Below the pieces are notes generated by a model. The model did not search any database and had not been told where the DNA came from. It saw only the letters and a program-made list of their open reading frames with translations. A stretch of 64,000 nt of DNA from positions 124,001-188,000 of the forward strand of contig NZ_AZEE01000030.1 in NCBI RefSeq assembly GCF_001434895.1, given 5' to 3'. This document shows positions 4,933 through 63,600 of the stretch, in pieces. The number at the start of each line of letters is the position of its first letter. Within the stretch, counting starts at the first letter, position 1. The translations under genes and the position numbers were made by a program. Source of the stretch: Secundilactobacillus odoratitofui DSM 19909 = JCM 15043 (GTDB taxonomy: Bacteria; Bacillota; Bacilli; Lactobacillales; Lactobacillaceae).

Positions 4933-5083
4933 CGCCTTCGGCCGCCAGCCAGTTTTGACGAGTAGTTGTGGGACCGACTGCAACCGCTACGCGTTTTCCG
5001 TCTCGGTATTGAGACTCGGAACCCACGAGTCTCAATACCGTCCAGTGCCACTAAACGCTGACGCGTAAAGTGGTAGTGGCAGT
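4933..5083 (+). repeat. Dispersed structured element, copy A (truncated)
   Basis: Shares the core GTGGGACCGACTGCAACCGC, the GTATTGAGACTC / GAGTCTCAATAC stem and the CCACT / AGTGG stem with copies E and G. The left outer arm (about 4943-4964) has no complementary right arm: after AGTGGTAGTGGCAGT the sequence is unrelated, so the copy has lost its right end. It lies between two convergent genes. Confidence 0.7.
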
Positions 5084-5098
5084 ACAAGTTATCATAGG

Positions 5099-5148
5099 AA
5101 AAGCGCCTCAGTCGATTAACCACAAAAGGCTATCAACTGAGACGCTTT
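5099..5148 (-). terminator. Terminator between convergent genes, mainly for pepI
   Basis: AAAGCGCCTCAGT / ACTGAGACGCTTT inverted repeat. On the minus strand it is followed by a short T-rich stretch. Confidence 0.6.
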
Positions 5149-5186
5149 ACTTATGCATAGCTAAAATTGCATTGAAAACGACTTAA

Positions 5187-6098
5187 TTAGTCATTGAATT
5201 GATCATTTTCAACGTCGCAAATAAAAGTTGCTAAGTGATCGTAGTAGACCGGTGCGTTATCGATCATGTGGTGGTGACCACCCTCAGGCGTCGTCACTAA
5301 ACGAGCATGAGGAATTTCAGTGGCCATACGCTTAGCGGTTGCAACGGGCATGGTTTCATGTTCACCAAAGGTTAGCAACGTTGGGACTTTAATCTCGCTT
5401 AAGTGTGATTCAAATTGCCATTCCTTCAGTTTACCAGTGATGACGAATTCGTTATCGCCTTGGAAAGCACCGTAAACTGGGCGTGACATGGTTGGAATCA
5501 AGTGAGAAATAGCGGCTGGTTGCTTTCGATCAACGTAACCAGCGTTTAAAACATCCACGTACTTTTGGTATTGTGGATCGTCATAGTTGTTGGCGGCTTC
5601 TTGCTTCTTCATGTAGGCAACAGCGTCGGCGGGGAGGGCTTCTTCGCGGACTTGGTTGACGTGAGCAACGTACTCGTCGATATTGTCGACCATTGATGAA
5701 ATGATGGCACCCTTCAGGTGTTGGCCATACTTAGCAGCGTACATTTGAACCAATGCGCCACCCCATGACTGACCAATCAAGTAAAATTGATCGATGCCGA
5801 GCTTTTGGCGCACTTCTTCAACTTCATCCAAGAAGTAATCATAAGTTAAATACTTGTCCGCAATTTTAGGGTCAGAATAGTCTGGTTGGTCTGAGTACCA
5901 TGAGCCCAATTGATCGTACATATGAACTTGGACGTTGAGCCCCTGCTTTTTCAATTGTTGAGCAGTATCTTCCCAATATTCATGGTTGCCACCAGGGCCA
6001 CCATGGAGGGCGAGCAGGTGAATATCGCCTTCGCCTTGAGTGTTAGTCCAAAGATGGTAGCCGTTATCTAATGTAATGATTGTTGTACCTTGCTTCAT
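5187..6098 (-). CDS. pepI: Proline iminopeptidase (S33 alpha/beta hydrolase)
   Basis: 303 aa, cytoplasmic. It removes N-terminal proline from peptides and so completes the use of casein- or plant-derived proline-rich peptides. HGGPGG (residues 32-37) is the oxyanion-hole motif typical of proline iminopeptidases. The nucleophile is Ser111 in GQSWGG, and the catalytic His is in the C-terminal GGHHHMID. ATG follows GAGGAACG. It lies 51 bp downstream of pepX on the same strand with no terminator between, so the two peptidases, which act in sequence on X-Pro and Pro peptides, are probably cotranscribed. Paralogous S33 peptidases (e.g. PepR) are an alternative name. Confidence 0.88.
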   Translation of the reverse strand: MKQGTTIITLDNGYHLWTNTQGEGDIHLLALHGGPGGNHEYWEDTAQQLKKQGLNVQVHMYDQLGSWYSDQPDYSDPKIADKYLTYDYFLDEVEEVRQKLGIDQFYLIGQSWGGALVQMYAAKYGQHLKGAIISSMVDNIDEYVAHVNQVREEALPADAVAYMKKQEAANNYDDPQYQKYVDVLNAGYVDRKQPAAISHLIPTMSRPVYGAFQGDNEFVITGKLKEWQFESHLSEIKVPTLLTFGEHETMPVATAKRMATEIPHARLVTTPEGGHHHMIDNAPVYYDHLATFICDVENDQFND

Positions 6099-6149
6099 TA
6101 AACGTTCCTCGATTCTATAAATAAGTTAATTAACATCATAGCACTAAGC

Positions 6150-8564
6150 TTAAAGGTGTGGAACCTCCAACCAGCTATTTGTGGCTGAAATCGTGTAAGT
6201 GATGGCTTGATTACCGCGAATTGTCATACCAAAGTCCGTTGCGTAGATCAGTAGCCCAAGTTGATGACCTGGTGTCAGTCGATAATGGGTAGGTTGCAAC
6301 TCAATTTGCGTTTGATAAAACTGATTAGGTTTAATCGCTTCGACTTGCGTTAAGTGTGTGCGGTTTTGTAAGTTCAAGTGGCCTTTGCTGATCAATTGGT
6401 AGGGTGATGGCTTAGTTGCTAATTCATACTCGCGTAAATCTTCTTTTTTAAAGTGGTCACCAAGATCCATTGCCTGACGCGCTAACGTTGTTGGCAAGCC
6501 GTTTAATCGCTTAAACAGCCCCAAATCAACCAATTGCGCGCTAATTAAACCAATCGTTTGATTGACAGCAACGTTAAGGTGAACAACCGGACAGCCATCG
6601 ATAGTGAGTGTGTCGGTTTGAACTGGCGCAACTAGTCTTAATCGGTTAGTTGCCAGTGGCGATGACGCTGCTACTAAATCATGTTGCCAGTCAGAAATGT
6701 TGTGAGCATAGTGATCAAACTGTTTGGCCGGCAGTTGGTCTTCAAATTGATAGGTCTTGTCGTCAGTGTTAGTCGTTGAAAGGACTTGAGCGCCAAAATG
6801 GAAAGTCGTCTTATTATTCGTGTCAGCGCCCCAATCGTTGAAGGGGTGCCAAGTTTCTGGCGTGGCGTTATCTTGAACTAAAACATCTGGCAAGATGGTT
6901 TCAGCATGATTATCGACATCGTAAAGTTCATGTGATAGCCACAAATTAACCATGTCGGTGAAATCCAAAGACCTGAAGTTATTGATGTAGATGTGTGGGC
7001 CTTGGTGAAGAATTAATTTATGATTGATCGGTAATTTCGTCATTGCACGCCAAAGCTTCTCCGCATTGCGTGGTTTGACATTCCAGTCGTTCAAACCATG
7101 CACAATCATGACGTCAGCCTTGATGTTTGCGGCTTGATTACGATAGTTACGCTGATCCCAAAAAGCATCGTAATTACCGTTTTGGCGATCTTGTCCACGG
7201 GTGATTGTGTCAAGTTGCCGTTGCCAAGTGGCTTTAATTCTTGCGTAATCACCGGCTTGTTGCTGTCTTGAGAAAGTTTCTTCAGCTAAGACGTCAGCAT
7301 CTTCGCCCGGAAAGCCACCCGGCGCAATGACTAAGCCGCCCTCACGGTAATAATCATACCAGCTGGAGATGCCCGCTTCACAAATAATGGTTTTGAGCCC
7401 CTCAACGCCAGTGGTTGCTGCAGCCGTTGCCAGCGTACCAAGGTAGGACCGGCCAGTCATGGCGACCCGATGATTCGACCAAGTTGCTGCAATGGCAACG
7501 TTAGCCGTCCGATTGGTAAAGGCAACCCGCTTGCCCGTTAACCACTCAATCACGGCAATGGTTGAAGTAGTTTCTTCTGGATCGCCCGTAGTTCTGAGAC
7601 CATCGGATTCTTTGGTACCAATCCCCGCCGCGTACACCACGGCAAACCCGCGGGCAAGAAAATAATCATTAAGGCTGTAATCAAAAGTATTACCAAAGCT
7701 CTCTTCAGCTTGATCAGAATGACCGTTGATTACACGTGGTGCTGGCAAGGGATTTGAATCGTGGGTGAGAGTGTTCGAAGTTACGGTATTTGATGTTGGT
7801 TGTTTAACGGTTAAAGGGACATTAACATCGTGGGTCAATGCTTCACCGGCCGCATCGTTAGTCCCTTGATTATAGGGTGAGGCTGTATAGAGCGTCGGAA
7901 CAGATTGCGTATTTGATTCGATTGGTCGAGTGATTTCAACCTTTAACAGGTCTCGTTGACCGTCGTGATCGGTGTCTTGGGGTGATTCCACGTAAACAAC
8001 TTCGTGAATCAGTTTGGTCGTATCAAACACGGGTTGGGCCTTACCATTAAAGAAGAGTGGTTTTGGGAGTTGATTACGAGCAAGTAACTGGCGGTAATAG
8101 CCATGTGACGCCAGTTGATCTAGAAACGTTTGGCCAGTGGTCGTGTGGGTAATTAATAGTTGGTACCAGGCGTGTAACAGATCGGTATTCGTTAAGGTAG
8201 ACTGGTCAAAATTCGGTAAATTCACGGTACTGTGCAGTTTTTCAGGGTGAGTTAAGTCAAAATCAGCCTCAACCTGGAAGCCTAATAGCTGTAAAAAGAG
8301 GTTCCAAATCATGGTCGCAGTAATGGGCGTGGTCATCTGAACCAGAGAAAGGGCGTCCATGTCTTTGCTGACAAGTAAATTAGCAATTTTGTTGTCTGCT
8401 GCTTCTTGCGTGGTCGTTTCCGGGAAACTCTGACGGAGTAAGTGGTGCAGTAACCGATGAGTTGTTAACCTTTCAGTGGCGGCTGTAATAAAGTAAATTC
8501 GTTTTAGTTCTTCAATTTCAGTAGTCGTTGAAGTTGGTGCGATTGCGAATTGATTTAGTTTCAT
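6150..8564 (-). CDS. pepX: Xaa-Pro dipeptidyl-peptidase
   Basis: About 804 aa, family S15, a large cytoplasmic enzyme releasing X-Pro dipeptides from peptide N termini. Domains: an N-terminal helical dimerisation domain (MKLNQFAI onward, about 1-200), a catalytic alpha/beta domain with the serine in GRSYLGTLA, and aspartate in GLNDWNV and histidine in HQGPHIY, then a C-terminal jelly-roll. The frame is open to 8600, but ATG 8564 matches the usual family N terminus and has a perfect AGGAGG 10 bp upstream. The 12-residue extension would overlap the ribosome site. TATAAT lies at 8599-8604. First gene of a pepX-pepI unit. Confidence 0.92.
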   Translation of the reverse strand: MKLNQFAIAPTSTTTEIEELKRIYFITAATERLTTHRLLHHLLRQSFPETTTQEAADNKIANLLVSKDMDALSLVQMTTPITATMIWNLFLQLLGFQVEADFDLTHPEKLHSTVNLPNFDQSTLTNTDLLHAWYQLLITHTTTGQTFLDQLASHGYYRQLLARNQLPKPLFFNGKAQPVFDTTKLIHEVVYVESPQDTDHDGQRDLLKVEITRPIESNTQSVPTLYTASPYNQGTNDAAGEALTHDVNVPLTVKQPTSNTVTSNTLTHDSNPLPAPRVINGHSDQAEESFGNTFDYSLNDYFLARGFAVVYAAGIGTKESDGLRTTGDPEETTSTIAVIEWLTGKRVAFTNRTANVAIAATWSNHRVAMTGRSYLGTLATAAATTGVEGLKTIICEAGISSWYDYYREGGLVIAPGGFPGEDADVLAEETFSRQQQAGDYARIKATWQRQLDTITRGQDRQNGNYDAFWDQRNYRNQAANIKADVMIVHGLNDWNVKPRNAEKLWRAMTKLPINHKLILHQGPHIYINNFRSLDFTDMVNLWLSHELYDVDNHAETILPDVLVQDNATPETWHPFNDWGADTNNKTTFHFGAQVLSTTNTDDKTYQFEDQLPAKQFDHYAHNISDWQHDLVAASSPLATNRLRLVAPVQTDTLTIDGCPVVHLNVAVNQTIGLISAQLVDLGLFKRLNGLPTTLARQAMDLGDHFKKEDLREYELATKPSPYQLISKGHLNLQNRTHLTQVEAIKPNQFYQTQIELQPTHYRLTPGHQLGLLIYATDFGMTIRGNQAITYTISATNSWLEVPHL

Positions 8565-8598
8565 AAATGAAATGACCTCCTGTCGTGACAATACTGTC

Positions 8599-8604
8599 AT
8601 TATA
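8599..8604 (-). promoter_or_regulatory. -10 box of pepX
   Basis: TATAAT on the minus strand, 35 bp before the pepX ATG. No good -35 box was seen. Confidence 0.5.
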
Positions 8605-8718
8605 CCCTGAATGTGGTCATCCGGGCATTAAAGGTCGTGGCGTCTCGATGGCAATTGTAATTCATTCCATGTTAAACTAAAACGAGTGAAGCAACGTTAC
8701 CGAGAAAGGAATGTGTTC

Positions 8719-9897
8719 GTGGATTATATTGGCGGCATAGCTTTAATTTTATTTGCAACTACTATTGCCGGTGCCTTGAGTCAACGGATTGGGGTACCGA
8801 GTGTCATTGGTCAGCTACTGGTTGGTATTTTACTTGGACCAGCTGTTTTAAATTGGATCCGACCGGGCGAGTTGGTTTCCGTGGGCGCCGAGATTGGCGT
8901 GATTATCCTAATGTTTATGGCTGGACTGGAAAGTGACCTAAAATTGCTGAAACGGTATTTTAAACCTGCCGTGAGTGTGGCAACTTTCGGCGTGATTTTA
9001 CCCATGGCCTGTTTTTATGTCTATGGATTGGTGATGCACCAGAGTTTTGAACGCGCCGTTTTTTGGGGTGTTGTGTTCGCGGCTACCTCAGTTTCCATTT
9101 CCGTCGAGGTGTTGCGCGAATTAGGTAAATTGAATACCAAGGAGGGCGCTACGATTCTTGGTGCAGCTGTGGTGGACGACATTATGGCGGTGCTCATATT
9201 AAGTGTGTTTGTTAGCATGTTTTCGAGTCGCAGCCAACAATCGCCCAACTTGGCGCTAAGCTTAGTTGAACAGTTAGCGTACTTTGTGATGGTTTATGTT
9301 CTGATACGCTGGATTGCACCTATTTTGATGCACCTCTTTAAACGATTGGCACTGCCACAGTCAGTCCCAATTATGTCGTTAATTATCTGTTTAGGGATGG
9401 CATATTTGGCTGATTTAACTGGGCTCAGTGCCGTTATCGGTGCCTTCTTTGCCGGGATTGCAGTGGCTCAAACTCCTGCTCAAAAGGAAGTAACGGCAAA
9501 CATCAGCCCAATCGGCTACGCGTTTTTTGTCCCTATTTTCTTCATCAGTGTGGGGTTAGAAATGCGTTTTGATCATTTCTGGACGAATATTTGGCTGATT
9601 GTGGGCATGACAGTTGTTGCCATTTTATCCAAACTAGTTGGCGGCGGTCTCGGCGCAAAACTCTTGGGCTTTTCGTTCAACAGTGCCTACGTGGTCGGTG
9701 CCGGAATGGTGTCACGCGGTGAAATGGCCTTGATCATTGCTCAAATTGGCTACCAAGCCAAGTTGCTGGCCCCAGCGCTGTATTCAGAATTGATTGTGGT
9801 CATTATTTTAAGCACAGTGTTAGCACCGTTGTTACTCAAACACGCCATTCGACGGAATCAAACTGAATTGCCTGCTGCAGATCAACAGGCGAGTTAA
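8719..9897 (+). CDS. Kef/NapA-type cation:proton antiporter (CPA2), transport domain only
   Basis: About 392 aa with some 12 hydrophobic segments, covering the Na_H_Exchanger domain and ending without a cytoplasmic RCK domain. Motifs: GQLLVGILLGP near the N terminus, AAVVDDIMA (the DD-type ion-binding aspartates) mid-protein, and GMVSRGEMALI in the C-terminal half. Proposed role: Na+ or K+/H+ exchange across the cytoplasmic membrane. The frame opens at GTG 8686, but AAAGGA at 8705-8710 points to GTG 8719 (VDYIGG), spacing 8. Divergent from pepX. Ion specificity is unknown. Confidence 0.85.
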   Translation: MDYIGGIALILFATTIAGALSQRIGVPSVIGQLLVGILLGPAVLNWIRPGELVSVGAEIGVIILMFMAGLESDLKLLKRYFKPAVSVATFGVILPMACFYVYGLVMHQSFERAVFWGVVFAATSVSISVEVLRELGKLNTKEGATILGAAVVDDIMAVLILSVFVSMFSSRSQQSPNLALSLVEQLAYFVMVYVLIRWIAPILMHLFKRLALPQSVPIMSLIICLGMAYLADLTGLSAVIGAFFAGIAVAQTPAQKEVTANISPIGYAFFVPIFFISVGLEMRFDHFWTNIWLIVGMTVVAILSKLVGGGLGAKLLGFSFNSAYVVGAGMVSRGEMALIIAQIGYQAKLLAPALYSELIVVIILSTVLAPLLLKHAIRRNQTELPAADQQAS

Positions 9898-9970
9898 ATC
9901 CGCGCTGTTTGTTTCACGAATAATGGATTGATTCGAGTAAGTTATTGATTAAAGGTATAAAAATATTGTT

Positions 9971-10012
9971 AAGTGGTCCGACTGCCTTCTTGCGTAGTCG
10001 GGCCACTTTTTT
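9971..10012 (+). terminator. Terminator of the antiporter gene
   Basis: AAGTGGTCCGACT / AGTCGGGCCACTT stem with TTTTTT. Confidence 0.88.
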
Positions 10013-10128
10013 GACAAAAGCATAAACGGCAGTAAACTGGCTGGCCACTGAAAATAAGTCTTTTGAGGTTAACTCAAAGAAAGCGATATGAATGAAACCA
10101 TAACGGATAAGGTCAAAATTGTAGTTTT

Positions 10129-10328
10129 GTAACGAGAACGGAAGGTAAGGCGCTGGATCAATTGCAGTGATAAGTACGAGTTGGCGCTTTAGCGCTTACT
10201 CGTACTGGACGTTTGTGAGACTTCGGGTTTTGAAGGCTCACAAACGAGGTGGAAGACACGTGGATTTCGTGGCTGAAGCCGGTCACACAGCAATTGAACC
10301 AGCGCTTTACCTGGAGTGGTAGTGACAG
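10129..10328 (-). repeat. Dispersed structured element, copy B
   Basis: 200 bp. Plus-strand ends are GTAACGAGAACG and AGTGACAG, shared with copies H and I. The outer arms AGGTAAGGCGCTGG.. (10143 on) and ..CCAGCGCTTTACCT (to 10311) are complementary over about 23 bp with two mismatches. Internal stems: GTACGAG / CTCGTAC around an AGCGC loop, and CGTTTGTGAG / CTCACAAACG. It lies between convergent genes, downstream of a terminator on each side. The open frame that covers it is not a gene. Confidence 0.8.
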
Positions 10329-10346
10329 TAGCAATCTCGGCAACAG

Positions 10347-10379
10347 AAAAACCCTAGCGAAAACACGCTAGGGCTTTTC
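10347..10379 (-). terminator. Bidirectional terminator, mainly for the APC permease
   Basis: AAAACCCTAGCG / CGCTAGGGCTTTT, with T-rich tails on both strands. Confidence 0.85.
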
Positions 10380-10403
10380 AAAACGTTTATTAAATTTAAC
10401 GAC

Positions 10404-11789
10404 TTAGTTTAAACGGCTATGTTTCAAACCATAACCAAAGTAAAGTGCAAGCCCAAACAGGAACCAGATACCAGATGCAATCCAGGTTTCAGCTTGTAAT
10501 TGCGTTAACATGAAGATACAAAGTAGTCCAGAAATCACTGGTAATACAGGATACCATGGCACTTGGAAGCCTTGGTGATTTTGAATTTCTTTGTTACGAT
10601 GAAGTGGAATAATGCCAAATGAGACGAATAGGAAGGCAATTAAAGTCCCAATATTAACCAAGTTTGTCAACTGATCAAGTGGGACGAAGCCACCCATAAT
10701 GGCAATCACGGCCGTGACGGTTCTGAGACTGTGAATCGGGTTACCATGTTGATCAAGTTTACCAAGGAATTTTGGTAACAAGCCATCACGCCCAATCGAA
10801 TAGATCAACCGCGAAGAACTGTAAATCATAGTGACCATCATCGTGAACATCCCGGCCAAGGCACCTAACGCGATGATACCGGCTGCCCAGTTTTGGTGAA
10901 CAACTTGGAGGGCAAATGAAACGGGGTCTGATACGTCGAGCTTCGTGTAACTGATCATCCCAGTGAGCACGATTGAGACCAATACATAGAGGATGGTGGC
11001 AATGATCAGCGTCCCAATAATCCCAATTGGCATGTTCTTCTTTGGATTTTTAACTTCTGCTGCAGAACTGGAAACGGCATCAAAACCTAAGTAGGCAAAA
11101 AACACGGCAGATGCACCAGCAAAGACCCCGTGGGTACCAAATGGTGTGAACGGATGCCAGTTACCGGGTTTGACGTAAAAAGCACCAACAATAACGAATA
11201 ATAAGATGATGGCTATTTTAACAAATACAATAAAATTGTTAAGCCGTACGGAGGACTTGACACCGTGGCCCAGCATAAAGGAAATAATCAACACAATGAT
11301 GATTGCAATCCAATTCCCATACGTACCATGAGCGGGGTCTAGTGGCCCAACGATGGCACTTGGAATAGTGATTCCAAAGCCGCTCATAAACGATTTGAAG
11401 TAAGCACCCCAAGCACTTGAAACGGCGGCTACCGCTAAAACGTACTCCAAGATTAAAGCCCACCCAAGGATCCAGCCAATGATTTCGCCAAAAACGAGGT
11501 TGCCGTATGAATAGGCGCTGCCGGCAACCGGTAAAGCGGACGCAAATTCCGCGTAACACATTGCGGCCGTGGAACAGACAATTGCGGCAATAACAAAGGA
11601 CAAAATGATACCGGGACCGGCTTTGGTGGCAGCAACGGTTCCGGGTAAGATGAAAATCCCAGTCCCAATCACGGCTCCAATCCCGAGCGAGATTAAATCA
11701 ACTGCTGACATGGTCTTCACAAACTGTTTGTCAGTTTCCAGGTAGCGGTCAACCTTTTCTCGACGAAAAATACGAGAAATTAAAGACAT
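10404..11789 (-). CDS. APC-family amino-acid permease
   Basis: 461 aa, 12 predicted membrane segments. The N-terminal GAVIGTGIFILPG (residues about 38-50) is the APC substrate-binding glycine-rich loop of TM1. FAYLGFDAVSSSAAEVKNP in TM6 is typical of the cationic amino acid transporter/YfnA branch. It imports amino acids using the proton gradient. The substrate is not assignable; basic or branched amino acids are candidates. ATG follows TTGGAGGATTCAAC. It is monocistronic, with a terminator just downstream. Confidence 0.88.
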   Translation of the reverse strand: MSLISRIFRREKVDRYLETDKQFVKTMSAVDLISLGIGAVIGTGIFILPGTVAATKAGPGIILSFVIAAIVCSTAAMCYAEFASALPVAGSAYSYGNLVFGEIIGWILGWALILEYVLAVAAVSSAWGAYFKSFMSGFGITIPSAIVGPLDPAHGTYGNWIAIIIVLIISFMLGHGVKSSVRLNNFIVFVKIAIILLFVIVGAFYVKPGNWHPFTPFGTHGVFAGASAVFFAYLGFDAVSSSAAEVKNPKKNMPIGIIGTLIIATILYVLVSIVLTGMISYTKLDVSDPVSFALQVVHQNWAAGIIALGALAGMFTMMVTMIYSSSRLIYSIGRDGLLPKFLGKLDQHGNPIHSLRTVTAVIAIMGGFVPLDQLTNLVNIGTLIAFLFVSFGIIPLHRNKEIQNHQGFQVPWYPVLPVISGLLCIFMLTQLQAETWIASGIWFLFGLALYFGYGLKHSRLN

Positions 11790-12435: not shown

Positions 12436-12448
12436 AGTGGAGGATGAG

Positions 12449-18676: not shown

Positions 18677-18701
18677 TTTCTGCAAAGAGTAGTTGCTGAG
18701 A

Positions 18702-18892
18702 CTGCCGTCTCCAGTTGCCAGAAATCGGGGGCGGAGTTGCCGTGGGGTCGGTCCAAGCCAAAGGGCGGTCTTGGACCTCGAATTCAAGCCCCGCCAAAGG
18801 TCGTGCGGGTCTTCAATTCGCCCCTGACTGGTGGCAAATGCCACCAGTTATTTCACGGCAGGTCCCCGATTTCTGGCAACTTCCGACTACGG
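18702..18892 (+). repeat. Dispersed structured element, copy D
   Basis: About 190 bp between convergent operons. The outer arms at 18713-18730 (AGTTGCCAGAAATCGGGG) and 18864-18881 are perfectly complementary over 18 bp. The core begins GTGGGGTCGGTCC. Inner helices: GGTCCAAG / CTTGGACC and ACTGGTGG / CCACCAGT. Closest to copy F. It contains long open frames on both strands that I reject as genes. Confidence 0.78.
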
Positions 18893-18962
18893 GTGCTGTT
18901 GGGGTAACTGGTGAGGATTGAATCCGGATAATCACATTAACTTAATACATTCCAGAACCATA

Positions 18963-28608: not shown

Positions 28609-28800
28609 CGCCTTCGGCTTCCAGTCCGTTTTGGGGCGGGGTGCTGTGGGACCGACTTCAACCGCTTCGCGTTTTCCATCTCGTCTCTGATCCTCGAAAA
28701 AGCGAGTCTCAGAAACGTCCAGTACCACTAAGCGCTGGCGCACAAAGTGGTACTAGTCACTGCTACCCGCCCCAAAACGGACTGGAGGCGCTACGGCTTA
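28609..28800 (+). repeat. Dispersed structured element, copy E
   Basis: 192 bp. The clearest copy: arms at 28621-28640 and 28766-28785 are perfect complements over 20 bp (left arm CCAGTCCGTTTTGGGGCGGG). Core GTGGGACCGACTTCAACC, a CGC / GCG mini-stem, an AGTCTCAG-type stem and a GTACCACT / AGTGGTAC stem around AGCGCTGGCGC. Outer flanks GCCTTCGGC and GGCGCTACGGC. Confidence 0.82.
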
Positions 28801-29123
28801 TGTAGCTAGTAAGTTCAACCAAGGACATCTGTTTACGATTTTTTCAGAAATTCGATAGATTTAGGCATACGTTTTATATTATGTGATAATTTTTTGAGTT
28901 TGGTTAAGTACATCACATTGTGCTTTTTGACGACTTAAAGAATGGCCGGATGAGTTTCAAATGTACTGCGAAAATCATGATTTAAGTTTATAATTTCAAG
29001 CGCCAATTGAAAAAAGCTTTCAGTATAGAACATTACACTAACGCCATTACTCTTTTCTTTGATTGAAACGGTGAACGTGAAGTAGCGAATTGTTTTATTT
29101 GTGTACACCGATAATGGGATAGA
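28801..29123. other. Intergenic, no gene seen
   Basis: AT-rich 320-bp stretch with scattered stops in all frames and no ribosome-site-linked frame. No repeat or RNA motif recognised. Confidence 0.5.
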
Positions 29124-32967: not shown

Positions 32968-33024
32968 ACTCATAACGGTTTGAAAGTTGGATTAATCAAA
33001 AATGAGTGGGCAAAAACTCGTTTA

Positions 33025-33103
33025 GGTCCCAGAATATAAGAAGACCGGCCCGTGGATTCCTGGTTTTGGAATCTACGGGCCGGTCTTTTTATATTCTGGG
33101 ACC
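33025..33103 (+). terminator. Very long near-perfect hairpin (36-bp stem)
   Basis: GGTCCCAGAATATAAGAAGA..., about 36 bp, pairs with its inverse 7 bp away with two mismatches (33025-33060 and 33068-33103). The stem contains AGACCGGCCCGT / ACGGGCCGGTCT, itself a terminator with TTTTT inside the outer stem. It separates convergent genes, and it is much longer than a standard terminator. Confidence 0.7.
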
Positions 33104-33223
33104 TGAGCTTTTGCGCACGTTTAGACCAGATAACAGTTTTGAGTTAAAGTGAAATTTATACTCATTTCGAGTTAAGAAATTAATTCGATACCTACCAATA
33201 TGGATTTTTTCAGCCTCTTTTAA

Positions 33224-33824: not shown

Positions 33825-34001
33825 GTAAGCCGTAGTGCGGACGGTAAGGGTGGGGCATGCAGTGAAACGACTGGGTAACCAGTCGGGGACGAAGTTGAAA
33901 CGTGCAGGGGTTTTGGCACGGTTCAACTTCGAGGTTCGAGACCGAACTTTGGCTCGAACCGGCCCCACAGCATGCCCCGCCCTTACCGGGAGCCGGAGGC
34001 G
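33825..34001 (-). repeat. Dispersed structured element, copy F
   Basis: 177 bp, 3' of the phosphatase gene. Arms GGTAAGGGTGGGGCATGC (33843-33860) and GCATGCCCCGCCCTTACC (33970-33987) pair over 18 bp with one wobble. Inner helices: GGTTCGAG / CTCGAACC, GAAGTTGAA / TTCAACTTC and ACTGGGT / ACCAGT. Flanks GCCGTAGTGC and GCCGGAGGCG. Relative of copy D. Confidence 0.78.
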
Positions 34002-34033
34002 AACTCTTGCACTTTCAAAAAGTACCTCAGACC

Positions 34034-39116: not shown

Positions 39117-39303
39117 CGCCTTCGGCCACCACTTATTTTTTGGCTGGTGGATGTGGGACCGACTGCAGCCGCTTCGCGTCTTCCGCCTCGGTTGTGAGCC
39201 TAAAGACCAGTCTCACAACCGTCCAGTGGACAGTAAGCGCTAAAGCGCCAACTGCCACTTGTCACTGCCACCAGCCAAAAAATAATTGCTGGCACTACGG
39301 CTG
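39117..39303 (+). repeat. Dispersed structured element, copy G
   Basis: 187 bp. The arms (left about 39125-39150, TTATTTTTTGGCTGGTGG part; right about 39267-39292) pair over 26 bp with three mismatches. Core GTGGGACCGACTGCAGCC, stem GGTTGTGAG / CTCACAACC, then GTGGACAGT / ACTGCCACT around AGCGCTAAAGCGC. Flanks GCCTTCGGC and CACTACGGC. Shares one intergenic gap with copy H. Confidence 0.8.
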
Positions 39304-39537
39304 AGATGGTGGATAAACTGCAATAGTAGTTGCTGAGTGTTACTTTTGAGTTGTATTTGGGTGAACTTGTTATGGCAGAGAATTTTTGAATTTGGTTGCA
39401 ACGCGTATTGAATTTTTTGCGAGTTATCGACGATGGTATTCGTAACAACAGTTTATCGAAATAGTATAAGTGACAAGCAATTTTAATTGTAATGCGTTGT
39501 TATTTTTCTAGTCACTGTTGATTGATAATGCTCAAAT

Positions 39538-39741
39538 GTAACGAGAACGGAGGGCTAGCGGGCTTTTTTCGTTGCAGTGACAAGTACCACTTAACGCTTT
39601 AGCGTTTAGTGGTACTGGACGTTTCTGAGACTCACGGGTTTGGTGAGGCTCAGAAGCGAGACGTAAGCCACGGCTTTTTCGTGGCTGAAGTCGGTCTCAC
39701 AGCACCGGAAAAAGCCCGCTAGCACGTAGTAATAGTGACAG
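39538..39741 (-). repeat. Dispersed structured element, copy H
   Basis: 204 bp, opposite orientation to G. Ends GTAACGAGAACG and AGTGACAG as in B and I. Arms GGGCTAGCGGGCTTTTTTCG (from 39552) and CGGAAAAAGCCCGCTAGC (to 39723) pair over nearly 20 bp. Inner stems AGTACCACT / AGTGGTACT, CGTTTCTGAG / CTCAGAAGCG and CCACG / CGTGG. Confidence 0.82.
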
Positions 39742-56631: not shown

Positions 56632-57059
56632 ACGACCATTTTGGAATCAATGCTACACTAACCTGAATTATATAAATTCATTGTGTTAATCAAATTGTGC
56701 GATTAGGCAAGTTTCGAGAAAATAGAAGGCCTACTTTTTATAATGTAATTAATTTTAACTGAGATGCCACATTGAGTTTCAGTTTCAGGATTTTAAATGA
56801 TTCTACACAGATTTTTACGATGGCTGGAAATAAAATCGCAGACTGATGAGTTTCAAAAATATTCGTACTTTTCGTTGCACATTTCTATGATTAATTGCTG
56901 AATCCTCATTGCTCGTATTAGCTTGAAGGGGCGGATAAGTGTCAGAAATGGATTATGTTTGATATTTTAAAAATTTTCAACATGGAGTAATTTCATTGAA
57001 AATGTAGGCCTGATTGCGTACCATAAGACTAATTATAAGAGAACCTCAGGAGGACAACC
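56632..57059. other. Intergenic spacer, no gene seen
   Basis: AT-rich 428 bp between divergent genes. It holds the promoters of both, none assignable with confidence. Matches no repeat of this window. Confidence 0.4.
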
Positions 57060-57458: not shown

Positions 57459-57528
57459 CGTGCGATGCACAATATAATCGGCGGACTCACGTTACATGAA
57501 AGCAGTGTTATCTAAGGAGAATAAAGAC

Positions 57529-58047: not shown

Positions 58048-58095
58048 GGCTAACGCAAGTGGCATAACACCGCTGCATTAACTTTCAATTGAGTG

Positions 58096-58132
58096 ATAAC
58101 GGTCATCGGAATTAGAGGGTGACCGTTTTTTG
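58096..58132 (+). terminator. Terminator of the acetyltransferase gene
   Basis: AACGGTCA ... TGACCGTTTTTTG. Confidence 0.82.
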
Positions 58133-58159
58133 TGCACTCAGAAAAAAGAATTCTAATAG

Positions 58160-58188
58160 TTGACACGTTGGGTACTCACTGTTACTAT
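58160..58188 (+). promoter_or_regulatory. Promoter of the ABC exporter operon
   Basis: TTGACA (58160-58165), 17-bp spacer, TACTAT (58183-58188), about 110 bp before the ATPase start. Confidence 0.7.
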
Positions 58189-58298
58189 ATAGCGGTACTT
58201 AGCATTAAAGAGCACTGTTCAAATAAAAAAGGGAAGTACATCGTTTTAGGCAGACTACCTAGTAATACTAAATAGACTGATTAATCTGGAGGAAGAAC

Positions 58299-59216
58299 AT
58301 GAATGCAATAGAAGTCAAAAATGTAAAAAAGGGCTTTGGTAAACTTGAGGTTTTAAAAGACGTCACTTTAACGGTTCAACCGGGCGAAATCTACACGTTG
58401 CTCGGTGAAAATGGAGCGGGTAAAAGTACGTTGATCAATATTTTAACGACCCTTTCGCAAGCAGATGCTGGTGCCGTTAAAGTGATGGGACTTGATCCGA
58501 TTTGCGACGGCAAACATGTTCGTCGATTGATCAGCCTGAATGCCCAGACCATGACACTGGATGAAAATTTCACCGGTGAGGCGAACTTGCGTCTGATCGC
58601 CAAATTGAGGGGAGTGGCAGATGTTGATGTTGCCATCAAAGAAATGAGCCAACGACTCGAACTATCGGCGTTTATTCAGCGAAAGGTCAACACTTATTCA
58701 GGTGGCATGCGCCGGCGTTTGGACATTGCCATGTCGTTGCTGGGCTCACCTAAATTGGTCTTTTTAGATGAACCAACCACGGGTGTTGACCCCAAGAACC
58801 GCTTGGCGCTTTGGCAGCTGATTCGAGAAATGCGGGCAAATGGGCAGACCGTTTTTTTAACGACGCAGTACTTGGATGAGGCGGATGCGCTTTCTGACCA
58901 TATTGCGTTCATCCATGATGGCCGAATCGTTAAAGTGGGGACGCCTGCAGAAATCAAGCGTCAGGTCACCACAACGTATTCGCTTAAAGTTGCTGAAGTC
59001 CAACGTGATGAAGCGACCAACTTGTTGAAAAATGCAGCGATTGCCTTTACGCAACGGGAGTCTGAGTTCGAACTTGACGAAATCGCAGCCAAACAGGGAT
59101 TGCCAATTTTGCTAGCTAATGGCATCCAAGTTCAACATTTTAATTTAAACGAAACGAAGTTAGAAACCGTTTTTCTGAACTTAATGCAGCAGGAGGTTAA
59201 TCATGCAAACCATTAA
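58299..59216 (+). CDS. ABC-2 type exporter, ATP-binding protein (DrrA-like)
   Basis: 305 aa. Walker A GENGAGKST (about residue 36), signature YSGGMRRRLD, Walker B LVFLDEPTTGVDP, then a C-terminal extension of about 80 residues ending LNETKLETVFLNLM, as in daunorubicin-type resistance ATPases. GGAGGAAGAAC before ATG. Overlaps the permease gene by 14 bp. A drug, lipid or peptide substrate is possible. Confidence 0.87.
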   Translation: MNAIEVKNVKKGFGKLEVLKDVTLTVQPGEIYTLLGENGAGKSTLINILTTLSQADAGAVKVMGLDPICDGKHVRRLISLNAQTMTLDENFTGEANLRLIAKLRGVADVDVAIKEMSQRLELSAFIQRKVNTYSGGMRRRLDIAMSLLGSPKLVFLDEPTTGVDPKNRLALWQLIREMRANGQTVFLTTQYLDEADALSDHIAFIHDGRIVKVGTPAEIKRQVTTTYSLKVAEVQRDEATNLLKNAAIAFTQRESEFELDEIAAKQGLPILLANGIQVQHFNLNETKLETVFLNLMQQEVNHANH

Positions 59217-59985
59217 ACAACTTACAGCACTAGTCACTCGAATCGTGCGCCAAAATCTCACCAATGCCGACACACTCATTACCGTTATTGCCATGCCGGT
59301 CTTTATGCTACTCTTCTTTGTATACGCGTTTGGTGGTAACATCGTGACGGCCACCGGTCCAGCCAGTTCGTCAGAATATTTGCGGTACGCGTTACCAGGA
59401 TTTTTACTGCTGACGATGGCAATGGGTTCGGCATATACGGCATTGAGAATTAACTACGACCAAACTTCTGGGTTTCTGAACCGACTTCACACGTTGCCAA
59501 TTCCACGATGGGTGATTCTAGGATCACACGTGATTGCTTCGGTGATATTTATGTTACTGGCGGAGGTTGTTGTGTTCCTAACTGGTTTACTCATGTGCTA
59601 CCGCACCGATGCGGGCATCACTTCGATTGTAGCTTTTTGGGGTCTGTCGTTACTTTTCAGCGTGGCGATTACGTTACTGGCCATTCCGTTTTCACTGAAA
59701 GCGGCCGATTATGCTTCTGCCGGTGGCTTTTCCTACTTGCTATTAATGCTGTTATTTGTGAGTTCCGCGCTAATGCCCACCGCAGGAATGGCCAAACCAG
59801 TTCGGCTTTTTGCAAATCACCAACCGATGACACCAATTGTGAACACTGCCAGAGGCTTACTGGATCATTCAATGGCAGTTAGTAATCATACCCTGTGGTT
59901 AGCAATGGGCTGGTTAGGCGCTTGTGTGATCATCTTCAGCGGCTTGTCGTACTGGGTATACTCGCGTTTGTTCTTGCATAAATAA
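59203..59985 (+). CDS. ABC-2 type exporter, permease (DrrB-like)
   Basis: 260 aa, six membrane segments. The ABC-2 pattern is clear: DTLITVIAMPVFMLLFFVYAFGG in TM1, LPGFLLLTMAMGS, ... RLHTLPIPRWVILGSHV after TM2, and a C-terminal ANHQPMTPIVNTARGLL. Pairs with the ATPase before it. AGGAGG in the end of that gene is the ribosome site. Confidence 0.87.
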   Translation: MQTIKQLTALVTRIVRQNLTNADTLITVIAMPVFMLLFFVYAFGGNIVTATGPASSSEYLRYALPGFLLLTMAMGSAYTALRINYDQTSGFLNRLHTLPIPRWVILGSHVIASVIFMLLAEVVVFLTGLLMCYRTDAGITSIVAFWGLSLLFSVAITLLAIPFSLKAADYASAGGFSYLLLMLLFVSSALMPTAGMAKPVRLFANHQPMTPIVNTARGLLDHSMAVSNHTLWLAMGWLGACVIIFSGLSYWVYSRLFLHK

Positions 59986-60079
59986 CGTTCGGTTAGTCTT
60001 GACGGAATCATTCAAGACTAAAATAAATTGTGACTAATAATTGAATGTCGTAGTCTCTGTAAAATGTTAACGGTTTCAG

Positions 60080-60108
60080 TTGGCGTCAAATCACAACTCC
60101 GATATAAT
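60080..60108 (+). promoter_or_regulatory. Promoter of the serine hydrolase gene
   Basis: TTGGCG (60080-60085), 17-bp spacer, TATAAT (60103-60108), 32 bp before the ATG. Confidence 0.72.
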
Positions 60109-60140
60109 GACACTATAAGTTGAATAGAGGAGTGACGACG

Positions 60141-61073
60141 ATGACTAAGCATTTAAACCGATTTTCAACCTTTAAGTGTTGGGTAGTTGCAGCTGCCGTA
60201 ATCTTTGGTGTTAGTGTAATCAGCTGGGAGACGGCGGTTGTGTCCGTTAAGGCCGCTGAAACGCAGGCCGTGGTTACGCAGCAACGGGCAGTGAAAGCTA
60301 AACTTCAGCGGTACGTGAACCTCGTGACTAAGGACGGTACGACCAGTGTAGCGTTTTATAATCTTGGCGCTAAGTCCACCACTCAAGCTGGCCGCGCCAA
60401 AAGTGCCCGGTTTTATGCGCCAGGTAAGTTAGCTGTGTATAGCAAAAACGCCCATCGAGCATATACATCTGCCAGCACGTACAAATTATTTGTAGCAGCT
60501 AGCATTTACGCGAGAATCAATGCGGGCACGTTGAGTCGTTCAGTGACCCGTTCCAGCGGCTTTCAGCAGATGATTCTACACAGCCGCAATGAGTTTGCGG
60601 AGCACTATCTTGGCACTTACGGCTACGGTCGCGTGAATAACTTTGTCGCCAAACAAAACTGGTACAAGCATCCATTTGGCACGGGCAGAGCGGCTCGAAC
60701 AACTGCTGCGACACTAGTCTCGGTTCTGCGTAAACTTGATCAGCAAAAATATCCGTTTAATCAATCATCCAGTCGCCAACAACTGCTGTCATTAATGAGT
60801 CGCCAGGTTTACCGCAGTGGGATTCCCAAAGGTGCTGCCACAGCTACTAAGGGAAGTCGCGTTGCGGATAAAGTTGGCTGGTTATGGTCCTACAATAATG
60901 ACGCAGGTATCGTGACGCTACCGAATGGTCAGCGGTACGCGCTGGTCATCATGACGCACGGCCATGGCCAACACGGGTTTAGTGGCTTTCCAAGGATTGC
61001 CAGGATTACTAAAAATATCCAGACAATCGTGTACGGTAAAGCGACAACGAAGCAAATTAATGCGCTTTATTAA
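60141..61073 (+). CDS. Exported serine hydrolase, beta-lactamase/DD-peptidase fold
   Basis: 310 aa. N-terminal signal or anchor segment (CWVVAAAVIFGVSVISW), then a penicillin-recognising fold: nucleophile motif STYK (SASTYKLFVAASIY), second motif HSRNEF (SxN), third KVGW replacing KTG. Such proteins in lactobacilli are often D,D-carboxypeptidase or class A beta-lactamase-like wall enzymes; the KVG variant makes true beta-lactamase activity doubtful. ATG 60141 follows GAGGAGTGACGACG; the TTG at 60120 overlaps the promoter-proximal leader. Confidence 0.8.
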   Translation: MTKHLNRFSTFKCWVVAAAVIFGVSVISWETAVVSVKAAETQAVVTQQRAVKAKLQRYVNLVTKDGTTSVAFYNLGAKSTTQAGRAKSARFYAPGKLAVYSKNAHRAYTSASTYKLFVAASIYARINAGTLSRSVTRSSGFQQMILHSRNEFAEHYLGTYGYGRVNNFVAKQNWYKHPFGTGRAARTTAATLVSVLRKLDQQKYPFNQSSSRQQLLSLMSRQVYRSGIPKGAATATKGSRVADKVGWLWSYNNDAGIVTLPNGQRYALVIMTHGHGQHGFSGFPRIARITKNIQTIVYGKATTKQINALY

Positions 61074-61204
61074 GGAACTCCTGAGTAATCAGGTTATCTG
61101 CTCGTGGGTAAATTCTGCTAATCTCATGTATTTTGACTAATAAATGGTTAAAAAATGTTATACTTATTTCGTTATTCAAACATACGATTTTAGGGGGAGA
61201 AATG

Positions 61205-62191
61205 ATGCAGAATCATCATCAGCTGGCAATGGCTATTGCGGTACTGACGTTAACTGCGGGTATGTTGTTTGGCATGACTACAGTTCGAGCCGATATTGCT
61301 ACTGACAGCAGTAGTGCTGTGACCAGTTCGGCAAGTACGTCTTCAGCAACGAGTTCTAGTACGTCGCAGTCATCAAACACGACACAGTCTTCGGGGTCTC
61401 AGAGTACGTCTCAGACAACGACAACTGAGACCAAACCACAGCCAGTTTATGCCAAAGTTTCAAAGCTAACTAAGGTTAACTATTACACCACGATGGGGGC
61501 CAATCAGAAGCATAATTATGGTGTTTACTCAAGCGGTGCATACAATACGTCTGCTGCCAATCGGGTGAAGGTTAAAACTGGTCGGACCTTTGCGGGTAAA
61601 ACCATCCATATCACCCGAGAAGAGGTAGTAGCGGGTGCAACTTGGTTGAAGTTTACTTACAACCATAAATACACGGGTTGGATTCACCAAAACGCCACGG
61701 TGAAAACCACGTATCGACTGTACGCACCGTTAATTGGGCAACGACCAGAGTTACCAACTGGGTGTGAGATTACGGCAACTGCGATGATGTTGCAATTTGC
61801 AGGTGCCAAGGTGACAAAGTTAAGTTTGGCTAAGGAAATGCCACGAAGTAGTAATCCTAATAAGGGTTTCGTCGGTAATCCATATTCAAAGTCTGGTTGG
61901 TACATTTACCCTAAGGGACTGTTACCAGTCGTCAAAAAGCACTTGGGAAGTGCCAAAAATTTAACGGGCGCGAGTTTGACCACGATTAAAAAATACCTAC
62001 GTAAGAATCATTTGGTTGTGGTGTACGTTGCTGGGGTGGATGGCTTTAGTAACCATGCGTTAACTTTAACGGGTTATTCAAGCACTCGGCTCTATTACAA
62101 CGATCCGTGGACGAAGAAACGAACAAGTATGAGCAATGCCACGATGACCAAACACCGTAAAGCGGATGCTAACCGGGCGTTGAGTTACTAA
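61205..62191 (+). CDS. Exported C39-like peptidase with Ser/Thr linker and SH3-like domain
   Basis: About 328 aa. Signal peptide (MAIAVLTLTAGMLFGMTTVRA), Ser/Thr linker (about 30-85), a GW/SH3-like module (VNYYTTMGANQKHNYGVYSS ... YTGWIHQNATV, about 95-170), then a C39-like papain-fold domain with catalytic Cys in LPTGCEITATAMML and His in GFSNHALTLTGY, and NDPW. Probably cleaves a wall peptide or a secreted peptide. GGGGGAG precedes tandem ATGs at 61202 and 61205; spacing favours the second. Confidence 0.82.
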   Translation: MQNHHQLAMAIAVLTLTAGMLFGMTTVRADIATDSSSAVTSSASTSSATSSSTSQSSNTTQSSGSQSTSQTTTTETKPQPVYAKVSKLTKVNYYTTMGANQKHNYGVYSSGAYNTSAANRVKVKTGRTFAGKTIHITREEVVAGATWLKFTYNHKYTGWIHQNATVKTTYRLYAPLIGQRPELPTGCEITATAMMLQFAGAKVTKLSLAKEMPRSSNPNKGFVGNPYSKSGWYIYPKGLLPVVKKHLGSAKNLTGASLTTIKKYLRKNHLVVVYVAGVDGFSNHALTLTGYSSTRLYYNDPWTKKRTSMSNATMTKHRKADANRALSY

Positions 62192-62210
62192 TTTATTGGG
62201 GGAATTTAGG

Positions 62211-63239
62211 ATGAAATTTAAATGGCTTTTAGTATTGGGTGCGGGATTATCATTAGGGTTGATGACCACCACAGTGCAAGCAAGTAGTTACTACACGACG
62301 AATCCTGGCATTATTAAAACCAAGAAGACCGTTGCTTATTACAACGACGCCAGCAAAACCAAAAAAGTTAAAACAGTTAAAAAGAACAATTATGCTAAAG
62401 TGTCAGCGGTCGTCACTCAAAAGGGTCACGCACCAATGCTCAAGTTGAGTGGCAACCAGTATGTGACAGCCAATAAAGCCTTCGTCTCTAAAACGGCAGG
62501 ATATCAAAATCCAAAGGCCTACTATCAGGTTCAATACAAGCAGATTAAGCCTTATGGGACGGTAGGTTACACAGTTAAGCGCAATTATGAAGGGATTAAG
62601 ACCTGGTACATTATGCGTAAAATGGGAACCTACGCAGGATACGACAAGTATAATAATGCGACGTATAACGCCGTGAAGGCCTTCCAACGCAAGCACCATT
62701 TGAAGGTGACTGGTAATGTCAATGAAAAAACTTGGGTTAAAATGGGCTTTACCAAGTCATCATGGACGAGTATTGATAGCTACATCGCGCCACTAGGGGC
62801 TCATGCCTGGAATGGCCGCAGTGCACACATCGAAGCCATGATCAAGCAAGCGTACAAGTATATGGGCAACCCATATTTGGTTGGCTCATCTTCAAGTCCT
62901 AAGTATGGGACGGATTGTTCAGGTCTTGTGATGCAGGCGTTATACGCGGGTGGTATTAACCCAGCACCAATTAGTTCAATTCATCATGCCTATCCAGGTA
63001 ATGAGTGGAACAGCCGTAATTTGTGGGCATCTAAGAAATTAAAACGAGTTGCGTATGCTCATCGCCAACGTGGCGACTTGGTTTTCTATTATCAACCAGG
63101 AACCCACACGATTTGGCACGTGGCTATCTACTTAGGTAAGGGCAAGGTCATCGAGTCATGGCCACCAAGAATTATGGTTCAACCAATTAAAAATGGTCAA
63201 CGGTCATATATTGCTGGCATTAAGCGACCATTTATTTAA
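62211..63239 (+). CDS. Exported NlpC/P60 endopeptidase with peptidoglycan-binding domain
   Basis: About 342 aa. Signal peptide (LLVLGAGLSLGLMTTTVQA), an N-terminal SH3-like region with KVKTVKKNNYAKVSAV, a PG_binding_1 domain (YNAVKAFQRKHHLKVTGNVN, about 145-185), then NlpC/P60: catalytic Cys in YGTDCSGLVMQAL, His in HTIWHVAIYLG, third residue in the following VIESWP. Cleaves D-Glu-mDAP or D-Glu-Lys links in peptidoglycan. ATG 62211 after GGGGGAATTTAGG, 19 bp after the C39-like gene, so the two form an operon. A terminator follows. Confidence 0.88.
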   Translation: MKFKWLLVLGAGLSLGLMTTTVQASSYYTTNPGIIKTKKTVAYYNDASKTKKVKTVKKNNYAKVSAVVTQKGHAPMLKLSGNQYVTANKAFVSKTAGYQNPKAYYQVQYKQIKPYGTVGYTVKRNYEGIKTWYIMRKMGTYAGYDKYNNATYNAVKAFQRKHHLKVTGNVNEKTWVKMGFTKSSWTSIDSYIAPLGAHAWNGRSAHIEAMIKQAYKYMGNPYLVGSSSSPKYGTDCSGLVMQALYAGGINPAPISSIHHAYPGNEWNSRNLWASKKLKRVAYAHRQRGDLVFYYQPGTHTIWHVAIYLGKGKVIESWPPRIMVQPIKNGQRSYIAGIKRPFI

Positions 63240-63287
63240 TCACTGACAGAATGAGATAAAGTTCAATTAAGTTCAGAAAATGAATTG

Positions 63288-63328
63288 ATTCGTAAATTCC
63301 CCCTTTGGGAGTTTACGAATCTTTTTTA
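63288..63328 (+). terminator. Terminator of the cell-wall hydrolase operon
   Basis: GATTCGTAAA ... TTTACGAATC plus CCC / GGG inner pairs, then TTTTTTAT. Confidence 0.88.
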
Positions 63329-63400
63329 TAGGTTGAACTTGTTTAGTTCATGTGTTTTGCAAAGGTCATACTGCTTAAACTTTTTAAGTATGATTTTCCA

Positions 63401-63600
63401 GTAACGAGAACGAAAGGTAACGACTGCTTTCGGCTGCAGTGACAAGTACGAGTTTGCGCTTTAGCGCTTACTCGTACTGGACGTTTGTGAGACTTCGAAT
63501 TTTGAAGGCTCACAAACGAAGCGAAAGACACGTGGTTTTCGTGGCTGAAGCTGGTCCCACAGGAGCTGAAGGCGGTCGTTACCTGAAGCGGCAGTGACAG
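63401..63600 (-). repeat. Dispersed structured element, copy I
   Basis: 200 bp, ends GTAACGAGAACG and GCAGTGACAG as in B and H. Arms AGGTAACGACTGCTTTCGGC and GCTGAAGGCGGTCGTTACCT pair over 20 bp with a few mismatches or wobbles. Inner stems AGTACGAGT / ACTCGTACT and CGTTTGTGAG / CTCACAAACG. Confidence 0.82.

Follow-up and report, generated by a model that had tools for sequence, protein, structure and literature searches.

What kind of element is repeated eight times between the genes of the window (the whole 64-kb stretch of Secundilactobacillus odoratitofui DNA analyzed here), with outer arms that are unrelated between copies but complementary to each other within a copy? A preliminary description of this DNA had offered three options: a structured RNA, a hairpin-based element moved in trans, or a chromosome-organising repeat. 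The first two are supported by our analysis and do not exclude each other, whereas the RAYT/IS200 route associated with the second is not. We consider it probable (roughly 60%) that the window copies represent a mobile structured non-coding RNA module, which is MITE-borne in some hosts.

A conserved core closed by a sequence-free helix

We derived a covariance model (R1) from 48 copies of the element in the window's own genome, of which five (E, F, G, H and I) lie in the window; copies A, B and D were outside the training set. The 48 rows had been selected for an intact-core motif, with three over-long ones removed, and this sample therefore favours intact copies. R1 recovered all eight copies claimed for the window (A, B and D to I; Table 1), together with one 37-nt antisense partial match within copy A. 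The preliminary description had proposed searching the whole genome and related species, and the family was found in both; neither a lack of further copies nor a loss of pairing in most of them was observed. In the window's genome, 139 matches were obtained, of which 137 remained after two weak antisense overlaps were dropped, so that the family comprises at least 137-138 copies of about 200 letters each. All R1 copy counts per genome given here are lower bounds, as no more than 150 candidates were scored in each genome (21 and 13 in two of the searches).

Table 1. Positions of the element copies in the window, with the corresponding R1 matches
Feature	Position	Strand	R1 match	Remarks
Copy A	4933..5093	-	4959-5093:-	truncated, right-hand arm missing; RNA strand minus
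Copy B	10129..10328	+	10156-10297:+	GGTAACG-type arms; ends read from sequence
Copy D	18698..18899	-	18733-18867:-	GTTRCCAGAAATC-type arms; ends approximate
Copy E	28609..28801	-	28637-28771:-	ends approximate
Copy F	33825..34002	+	33851-33977:+	divergent subfamily, short hairpin P2; ends approximate
Copy G	39117..39304	-	39144-39276:-	left half of divergent pair with H; ends approximate
G-H spacer	39305..39537	.		between copies G and H
Copy H	39538..39741	+	39566-39709:+	GCTAGCGGGC-type arms; right half of G/H pair
Copy I	63401..63600	+	63428-63569:+	GGTAACG-type arms

In each copy, a GGGAC/GUCCC stem and a GCUGUG/CACAGC stem close a three-hairpin core. This core shows strong covariation: in the 48-row alignment, 97.6% of the core pairs are standard pairs, 30/42 pairs changed on both sides, and none of 500 shuffles was equally good on any of five measures. 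Beyond the core follows a long terminal helix with free sequence and conserved pairing, which explains the puzzle of unrelated but self-complementary arms. Across the 137 copies, the duplex formed by a copy's own 5' and 3' arms reached a mean of -49.5 kcal/mol compared to -27.1 kcal/mol for swapped arms, and the own partner came first among all 137 for 88 copies and within the top three for 115. That the arms differ entirely between copies is true for the window sample, but genome-wide they group into several subfamilies (H-type, GCTAGCGGGC; B/I-type, GGTAACG; D-type, GTTRCCAGAAATC, the latter common to 8 genome copies).

The strand originally described, on the other hand, is not the selected one: it is its reverse complement that folds. 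A structure optimised on the strand first read showed many A-C and few G-U cells in the pair table, whereas 86 G-U stand against 8 A-C on the opposite strand, which also gave the better whole-copy fold in 128/137 copies. The wobble excess is weak when only the arms are considered (141 G-U versus 109 A-C, p = 0.05), and in single-orthologue structures the difference is modest, with 51/122 changed pairs broken on the RNA strand versus 64/115 on the other. On the strand first read, the folds of copies E, H and F were 7.2, 9.9 and 7.7 SD better than dinucleotide shuffles. The fold is thus under strand-specific selection, in agreement with the structured RNA option. Single-stranded DNA also tolerates G-T pairs, which counts against an RNA-only reading of the wobble.

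In a comparison of the window with Rfam 15, no family reached its gathering score. Six matches were obtained at E-values up to 1, none of them to RF02616; miRNA-type matches at window positions 33010-33114, where a long near-perfect hairpin lies, were attributed to chance. In one distant genome, RF02616 (SSRC8_2) and R1 overlap on the same strand at two loci, L333 (two tandem copies) and L334, where SSRC8_2 scored 45.8, 39.2 and 34.6 bits versus a gathering score of 72. SSRC8 is a Streptococcus sRNA with Northern signals and RACE-mapped ends, according to the available text of its report (PMC3675131). Via the bridging loci, it shares with the window family a long outer helix and, on the same strand, two successive hairpins (GAGAC..GGCUC, then GGC..GCUGCC). 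SSRC8 is hence probably a distant relative; the similarity stays below the Rfam threshold and comes from one genome. In the available text, it is not presented as a dispersed, paired or mobile element (PMC3675131), whereas the window family counts at least 137 copies.

Outward-facing pairs and a MITE vehicle in three other species

All neighbouring copies within 1.5 kb of each other in the window's genome (46/46 pairs) are divergent, as are 40/44 pairs elsewhere (78 other loci). Outward pairing has exceptions, as genome G052 also contains head-to-tail copies. Where the modules of pairs in the window's genome are 90% alike, their spacers are mostly unrelated, and we therefore rejected the idea that units move there together with their spacers; spacer traces are kept at C7:14223, C7:95045 and C8:220103. 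A second small repeat is common to a few spacers. Among the outer flanks of the 137 copies, six short similarities were found.

In three other species (Lactiplantibacillus daoliensis, L. pingfangensis and Companilactobacillus huachuanensis), units of 300-570 bp with CTAAAGGTTGAAAG inverted ends enclose either one module or two that face outward. Of 38 end-bounded units, 28 show a 7/8-bp target duplication, compared to 0.4% for displaced positions; the element is carried by 31/38 and a divergent pair by 11/38. An insertion sequence with the same ends (0-2 mismatches) was found in three copies of 1.44-1.46 kb (L325, L328, L331), in which the transposase pieces are split or cut short; an intact copy was not seen. 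Three transposase pieces were assigned to IS4 with 254, 268 and 290 bits (cut-off 250), and a fourth reached 159 bits. The insertion sequence loci gave no R1 match, and a 104-residue query found no such insertion sequence in L. daoliensis. Since the MITE ends are common to this 1.45-kb IS4-family insertion sequence, the module spreads in these species as a MITE mobilised in trans, and the IS4-type ends and target duplications support the option of an element moved in trans. The units resemble IS4-family MITEs in their inverted ends, 7-8-bp duplications, size and many copies, but differ from them in that the interior is a conserved RNA-like module and no IS remnant.

No such ends were found in the window's genome. 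Its 46 pairs showed no inverted ends with 4-12-bp target duplications; slight excesses of 3-bp duplications (6 versus 2.7) and of inverted repeats of any kind (in 9 versus 5 controls) are unconvincing. The IS4 end motif gave 0 matches in this genome (G000) and the reversed control 2, and a fragment of the IS4 transposase had no match. Because ends, end motif and transposase match are all missing, the vehicle here is putative; the same kind of route was probably used, with outer ends that are eroded or of another type.

The RAYT/IS200-like gene suggested as a search target was not found, as the window's genome and G052, with at least 138 and 133 copies, respectively, have 0 Y1 transposase matches. 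Y1 transposases are present in G158 and in G149/G160, with a fragment in G161; the Y1 match coordinates of G149 and G160 are identical, and both are probably the same genome, L. daoliensis. A helper gene beside low-copy sister elements was rejected after ten neighbours had been checked, eight with ordinary Pfam matches and two with none. REP/BIME units with RAYT are, like the window family, intergenic, palindromic and often arranged in inverted pairs, but they are several times smaller, and the lack of a Y1 match in the window's genome is a further difference.

The same result bears on a reading in which folded single-stranded DNA, rather than RNA, matters, as a hairpin or cruciform for a recombinase in the manner of integron attC or IS200-type ends. 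We regard it as improbable. It would fit the conservation of structure rather than sequence, the lack of detected promoters (see below) and the outward pairs, which would leave each DNA strand with a folded module at its 3' end. Besides the missing Y1 match in two copy-rich genomes, the normal IS4-type unit ends in three species and the relative SSRC8, a transcribed RNA whose strand agrees with that of the model, argue against it.

Distribution, empty sites and conservation after insertion

The family is widespread in Lactobacillaceae and occurs across several genera. Within the window's genus the copy number varies from 0 to 138; 13/15 genomes have 0-6 copies (R1, lower bounds). No match was found in plasmids (blastn, copy E only) or phages (blastn, copy H only), and one stretch matched among viral contigs. 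The density within the window's genome is uneven as well, with 6 copies on a 680-kb contig (34 expected) and 14 on a 71-kb contig (3.5 expected). This strongly uneven density, seen in a 31-contig draft, is the single observation in favour of chromosome-organising repeats, and given the low numbers in 13/15 genomes of the genus we consider such a role highly unlikely.

At four tested sites of the window, sister species have no copy. Most sisters have shorter gaps at A, B, D and G/H, as expected for the empty sites that the preliminary description had suggested looking for, and R1 gave no match on any of 14 sister stretches. At G/H, the flanking genes are 837 nt apart here versus about 134-206 nt in 4/5 sister species; in the fifth this gap measures 4.3 kb.

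With mechanical open reading frames of at least 80 aa and one site skipped, 37/90 sites lie between converging and 6/90 between diverging frames, which fits the initial impression that copies are most often found 3' of a gene. This location in gene-end gaps, often adjoined by apparent intrinsic terminators of the neighbours in the sequence listing, could indicate that the copies serve adjacent genes as terminators or 3'-end elements. That explanation is very improbable, however: a stem plus T-run within about 190 nt downstream on the RNA strand was found in only 4/137 copies (strict scan, perfect stem), the RNA strand runs in the direction of the converging gene next to it, and sister species manage without copies.

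Once inserted, the core usually diverges between close relatives about as little as coding DNA does. In 5/8 orthologous stretches, 940/991 core positions are identical, compared to 961/1116 in flanking non-coding and 4186/4451 in coding DNA (core versus non-coding, p = 7e-12), corresponding to a divergence of 5.1% in the core and 13.9% in the flanks. Pooling all eight stretches gave 1325/1537 identical core and 1500/1851 identical non-coding positions (p = 5e-5). In 3/11 orthologous element pairs (2/8 stretches), the core was replaced by another version.

A rival view is that the copies are ordinary parasitic MITEs, in which the fold is kept for the moving of source copies, the observed copies are young and the host gains no function. 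This view is consistent with the patchy distribution and the swings from 0 to 138 copies between sister species, the MITE ends with target duplications of three species, the avoidance of promoter gaps, which fits neutral insertion, and the 2/8 stretches without core conservation. We nevertheless judge it unlikely, as the cores in 5/8 stretches are nearly three times less diverged than their flanks and the modules of the youngest duplicate pair differ at 21/426 sites versus 18/111 in the aligned spacer (one pair only). In addition, an IS4 transposase moving double-stranded DNA needs no folded interior.

A probable mobile RNA module and its possible use

Because its fold tends to persist after insertion, the element resembles a mobile RNA of possible use more than junk. 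Promoters were not enriched ahead of the 5' ends of the RNA when compared to the opposite strand or to shuffles; an own promoter was therefore rejected, and expression in the window's genome stays a prediction. The module may thus work as an RNA that is transcribed via read-through from outside. In an outward-facing pair, it would fold in any transcript leaving the unit towards the neighbouring gene and could shield or brake this outgoing transcript, with the free helix presumably acting as a spacer that fixes the geometry.

High-copy elements with extensive secondary structure and proliferation in one lineage are described for Streptococcus pneumoniae in the available text on BOX, RUP and SPRITE; some are transcribed, they are thought to be mobile, and the authors favour parasitic elements in the case of BOX (PMC3049150). 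Compared by these descriptions, the window family is also high-copy, structured, expanded and probably mobile, but differs from BOX in its multi-genus occurrence, mostly outward pairs, sequence-free terminal helix and retention after insertion. No description of the family in lactobacilli was found in the titles and abstract beginnings of the open-access papers listed.

A more far-reaching proposal, which we put forward tentatively and regard as possible but doubtful, is that a Lactobacillales-wide RNA family became a mobile module kept by its hosts, with about 140 functional MITE-delivered copies in this genome and folds held near the coding level at scores of sites. Each insertion would place one or two outward-facing folded RNAs at gene ends, and helices would be rewritten as whole paired blocks. 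To our knowledge, few bacterial genomes contain a large structured RNA-like element at such a density. The family connects mobile DNA with an orphan Streptococcus sRNA and, if the proposal is true, would be a bacterial counterpart of exapted transposon RNAs. With copy numbers from 0 to 138 within one genus and sites that are empty in sister species, the host benefit of a mobile RNA repeat becomes directly testable.

Distribution and anatomy of the element family

The element family is best read as a mobile structured-RNA module. A covariance model of the element, R1, was trained on 48 own-genome cores on the strand opposite to that of the preliminary description, five of them from the window; 51 distinct motif matches had been available and three over-long ones were excluded. 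In the 2.75-Mb own assembly (G000, 31 contigs), of which the window occupies C8:124001-188000, at least 139 matches were obtained, a lower bound because only the best 150 of 738 candidates were scored. All eight window copies described initially were recovered, and copy A contains an additional 37-nt antisense partial match. With BLAST, copy H was found at 51 places in this genome and copy F at 19. Removal of two weak antisense overlaps left the 137 copies analyzed below. Element density is very uneven (6 copies on the 680-kb contig C5, 14 on the 71-kb C2), and no R1 copies were found on 23 further contigs (~319 kb total); dnaA is located on C24.

The outermost parts of the element are a short closing stem and an internal loop rich in purines; inwards of these follow a variable helix, the GCUGUG/CACAGC stem, hairpin P2 and a GGGAC/GUCCC stem enclosing hairpins P3 and P4. 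As read from alignments, P3 and P4 of own-genome copies each carry AGAC/GGCU with an A.G mismatch. The overall plan recurs in copies from other genera. In the core, 97.6% of cells are paired and 30/42 pairs show both-sided change. The pairing initially proposed for the outer arms was borne out by duplex energies (own −49.5 vs swapped −27.1 kcal/mol), the own partner ranking best in 88/137 copies and among the top three in 115/137. That the arms differ entirely between copies holds for the window sample only, since genome-wide they group into subfamilies.

Under strict filters, R1 matches occur in 25/151 genomes and 9/40 genera of the family. Within the genus, 10/15 genomes have matches (138 copies in the own genome, 85 in G158, an assembly with 7% contamination, and 0–6 in the remaining 13), and further copy numbers are 133 in G052, 102 in G149 and 21 in G102. 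When 84,980 species genomes were scanned with a sequence pattern, all 80 records among the matches listed, of at least 114 stretches, carried lactobacillus names. The order-wide scan, also strictly filtered, yielded 14/246 genomes; nine of these lie beyond the family and score weakly, at 28–43 bits. At two of 13 loci fetched (L333 and L334, both in G282), R1 and the Rfam family of the Streptococcus sRNA SSRC8 (RF02616, SSRC8_2) coincide on the same strand. S. pyogenes SSRC8 gave a Northern signal with one strand's probe and its ends were determined by circular RACE; among the table rows considered, homologues are limited to parts of the stretch from nt 149 to 247 (PMC3675131). SSRC8 transcription is the sole experimental sign of the element fold being RNA.

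Movement and outward-facing pairs

Empty sites could be examined at A, B, D and G/H, four of the seven window sites, where 14/14 fetched sister stretches lacked an R1 match. Sister-species gaps are in the majority shorter and the long ones contain other sequence. Intergenic sequence at these sites is too diverged for reading insertion points.

In L. daoliensis, element pairs lie inside units bounded by CTAAAGGTTGAAAG inverted repeats. This end motif was counted 25+19 times in L. daoliensis, 129+132 in C. huachuanensis and 22+14 in L. pingfangensis (reversed-pattern control, 0–3 per strand). Among 38 distinct units from fetched loci, many of which were chosen for holding the motif, 15 showed an 8-bp target duplication, 13 a 7-bp one and 10 neither (one mismatch allowed; 0.4% at displaced control positions); 31 contained one or two elements, with a divergent pair in 11, and seven contained none. 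The ~1.45-kb copies bounded by such ends contain IS4-family transposase pieces, split across two frames or shortened, and no element. The shared ends, target duplications and transposase pieces identify the vehicle in these three species as a MITE mobilised by an IS4-type enzyme. In the own genome, where the end-motif scan returned 0 and neither such ends, duplications nor a transposase fragment were found, we infer the vehicle.

Neighbouring copies less than 1.5 kb apart form 46 pairs that take in 92/137 own-genome copies (45 are single); all 46 are divergent on the RNA strand, with gaps of 114–375 nt. The 78 loci examined in other species (one viral contig and 77 of the 80 genome loci listed) contain 147 copies; of 44 such neighbours, 40 are divergent, two are ++, one −− and one +−. 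Elements occupy gene-end gaps, 37 of 90 sites lying between converging and 6 between diverging open frames, and no promoter-like excess was found upstream of them. In some own-genome spacers, a second small hairpin repeat (about GCACCTATT..AATAGGCAC) is present as an inverted pair.

Features and flanking-gene gaps (gap order: here / G139, G152, G155, G157, G159)
Feature	Location	Remarks
Flanking-gene gap, site A		361 / 95, 857, 1659, 58, 80
Flanking-gene gap, site B		507 / 121, 183, 107, 267, 100
Flanking-gene gap, site D		558 / 3790, 345, 424, 2421, 199
Flanking-gene gap, site G/H		837 / 135, 4261, 206, 143, 134
IS4-family insertion sequence copies	L325 754-2213; L328 988-2429; L331 973-2423	Ends of same kind as MITEs
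Spacers with second hairpin repeat, examples	G000 C4:284053, C4:343882, C7:8766, C11:10120, C11:65671	
Head-to-tail element runs	G052 C61:1582-2454, C53:45448-46318	Another genus; period ~360 nt
Very long near-perfect hairpin	Window 33024-33104	Arms of 37 nt each, 95% complementary and separated by 7 nt; attracts below-threshold Rfam miRNA-family matches
Weak T-box leader match	Window 1-57	28.7 bits; cut by left edge

Selected strand and selection after insertion

On the strand initially described, with the structure optimised on that strand, changed pairs were almost all Watson-Crick, with mainly A-C exceptions and scarce G-U. On the RNA strand these exceptions turn into G-U, with 86 G-U vs 8 A-C cells; this count used a structure optimised on the RNA strand, so that the former is the fairer one. 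Whole-copy folding favours the RNA strand in 128/137 copies (mean −109.5 vs −98.3 kcal/mol), and with strand-neutral scoring the arms by themselves show a weak excess (141 G-U vs 109 A-C, p 0.05). Owing to this bias and the better folding, the selected strand is 5'-GCAGUGA...GGUCCCACAGC-3'. However, G-T is also tolerated in single-stranded DNA, and the strand bias by itself is thus no proof of RNA.

Eight orthologous stretches from closely related genomes were compared. In five, identity was 940/991 in the core, 961/1116 in non-coding flanks and spacers and 4186/4451 in coding sequence (core vs non-coding, p 7e-12; core vs coding, p 0.37). The sixth, more distant stretch (L133/L134) gave 0.84, 0.42 and 0.66 for core, non-coding and coding sequence. 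In the remaining two, L213/L215 and L182/L196, core identity was only 60–68% (0.68 in one, 0.60 in the other), with non-coding flanks at 83–91%; here alternative versions of the plan lie between conserved flanks and entire helices differ as paired blocks, as if recombination had exchanged these cores or their helices had been rewritten one at a time. Pooled over all eight stretches, identities were 0.862 (core), 0.810 (non-coding) and 0.910 (coding; core vs non-coding, p 5e-5). Of 11 orthologous pairs, eight copies were conserved; their joint folding, which is blind to broken pairs, left 468 base pairs unchanged, with 28 preserved as wobbles and 11 changed on both sides; single-sequence folds kept 71/122 changed pairs on the RNA strand vs 51/115 on the other.

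Taken together, the module is MITE cargo in some hosts, its fold is under selection at a few loci in others, and it probably acts as RNA. With the pair facing outward, every transcript that exits the unit would carry the folded module immediately ahead of the neighbouring gene. The function we prefer from this layout is that the folded module may serve as a shield or brake on transcripts leaving the unit.
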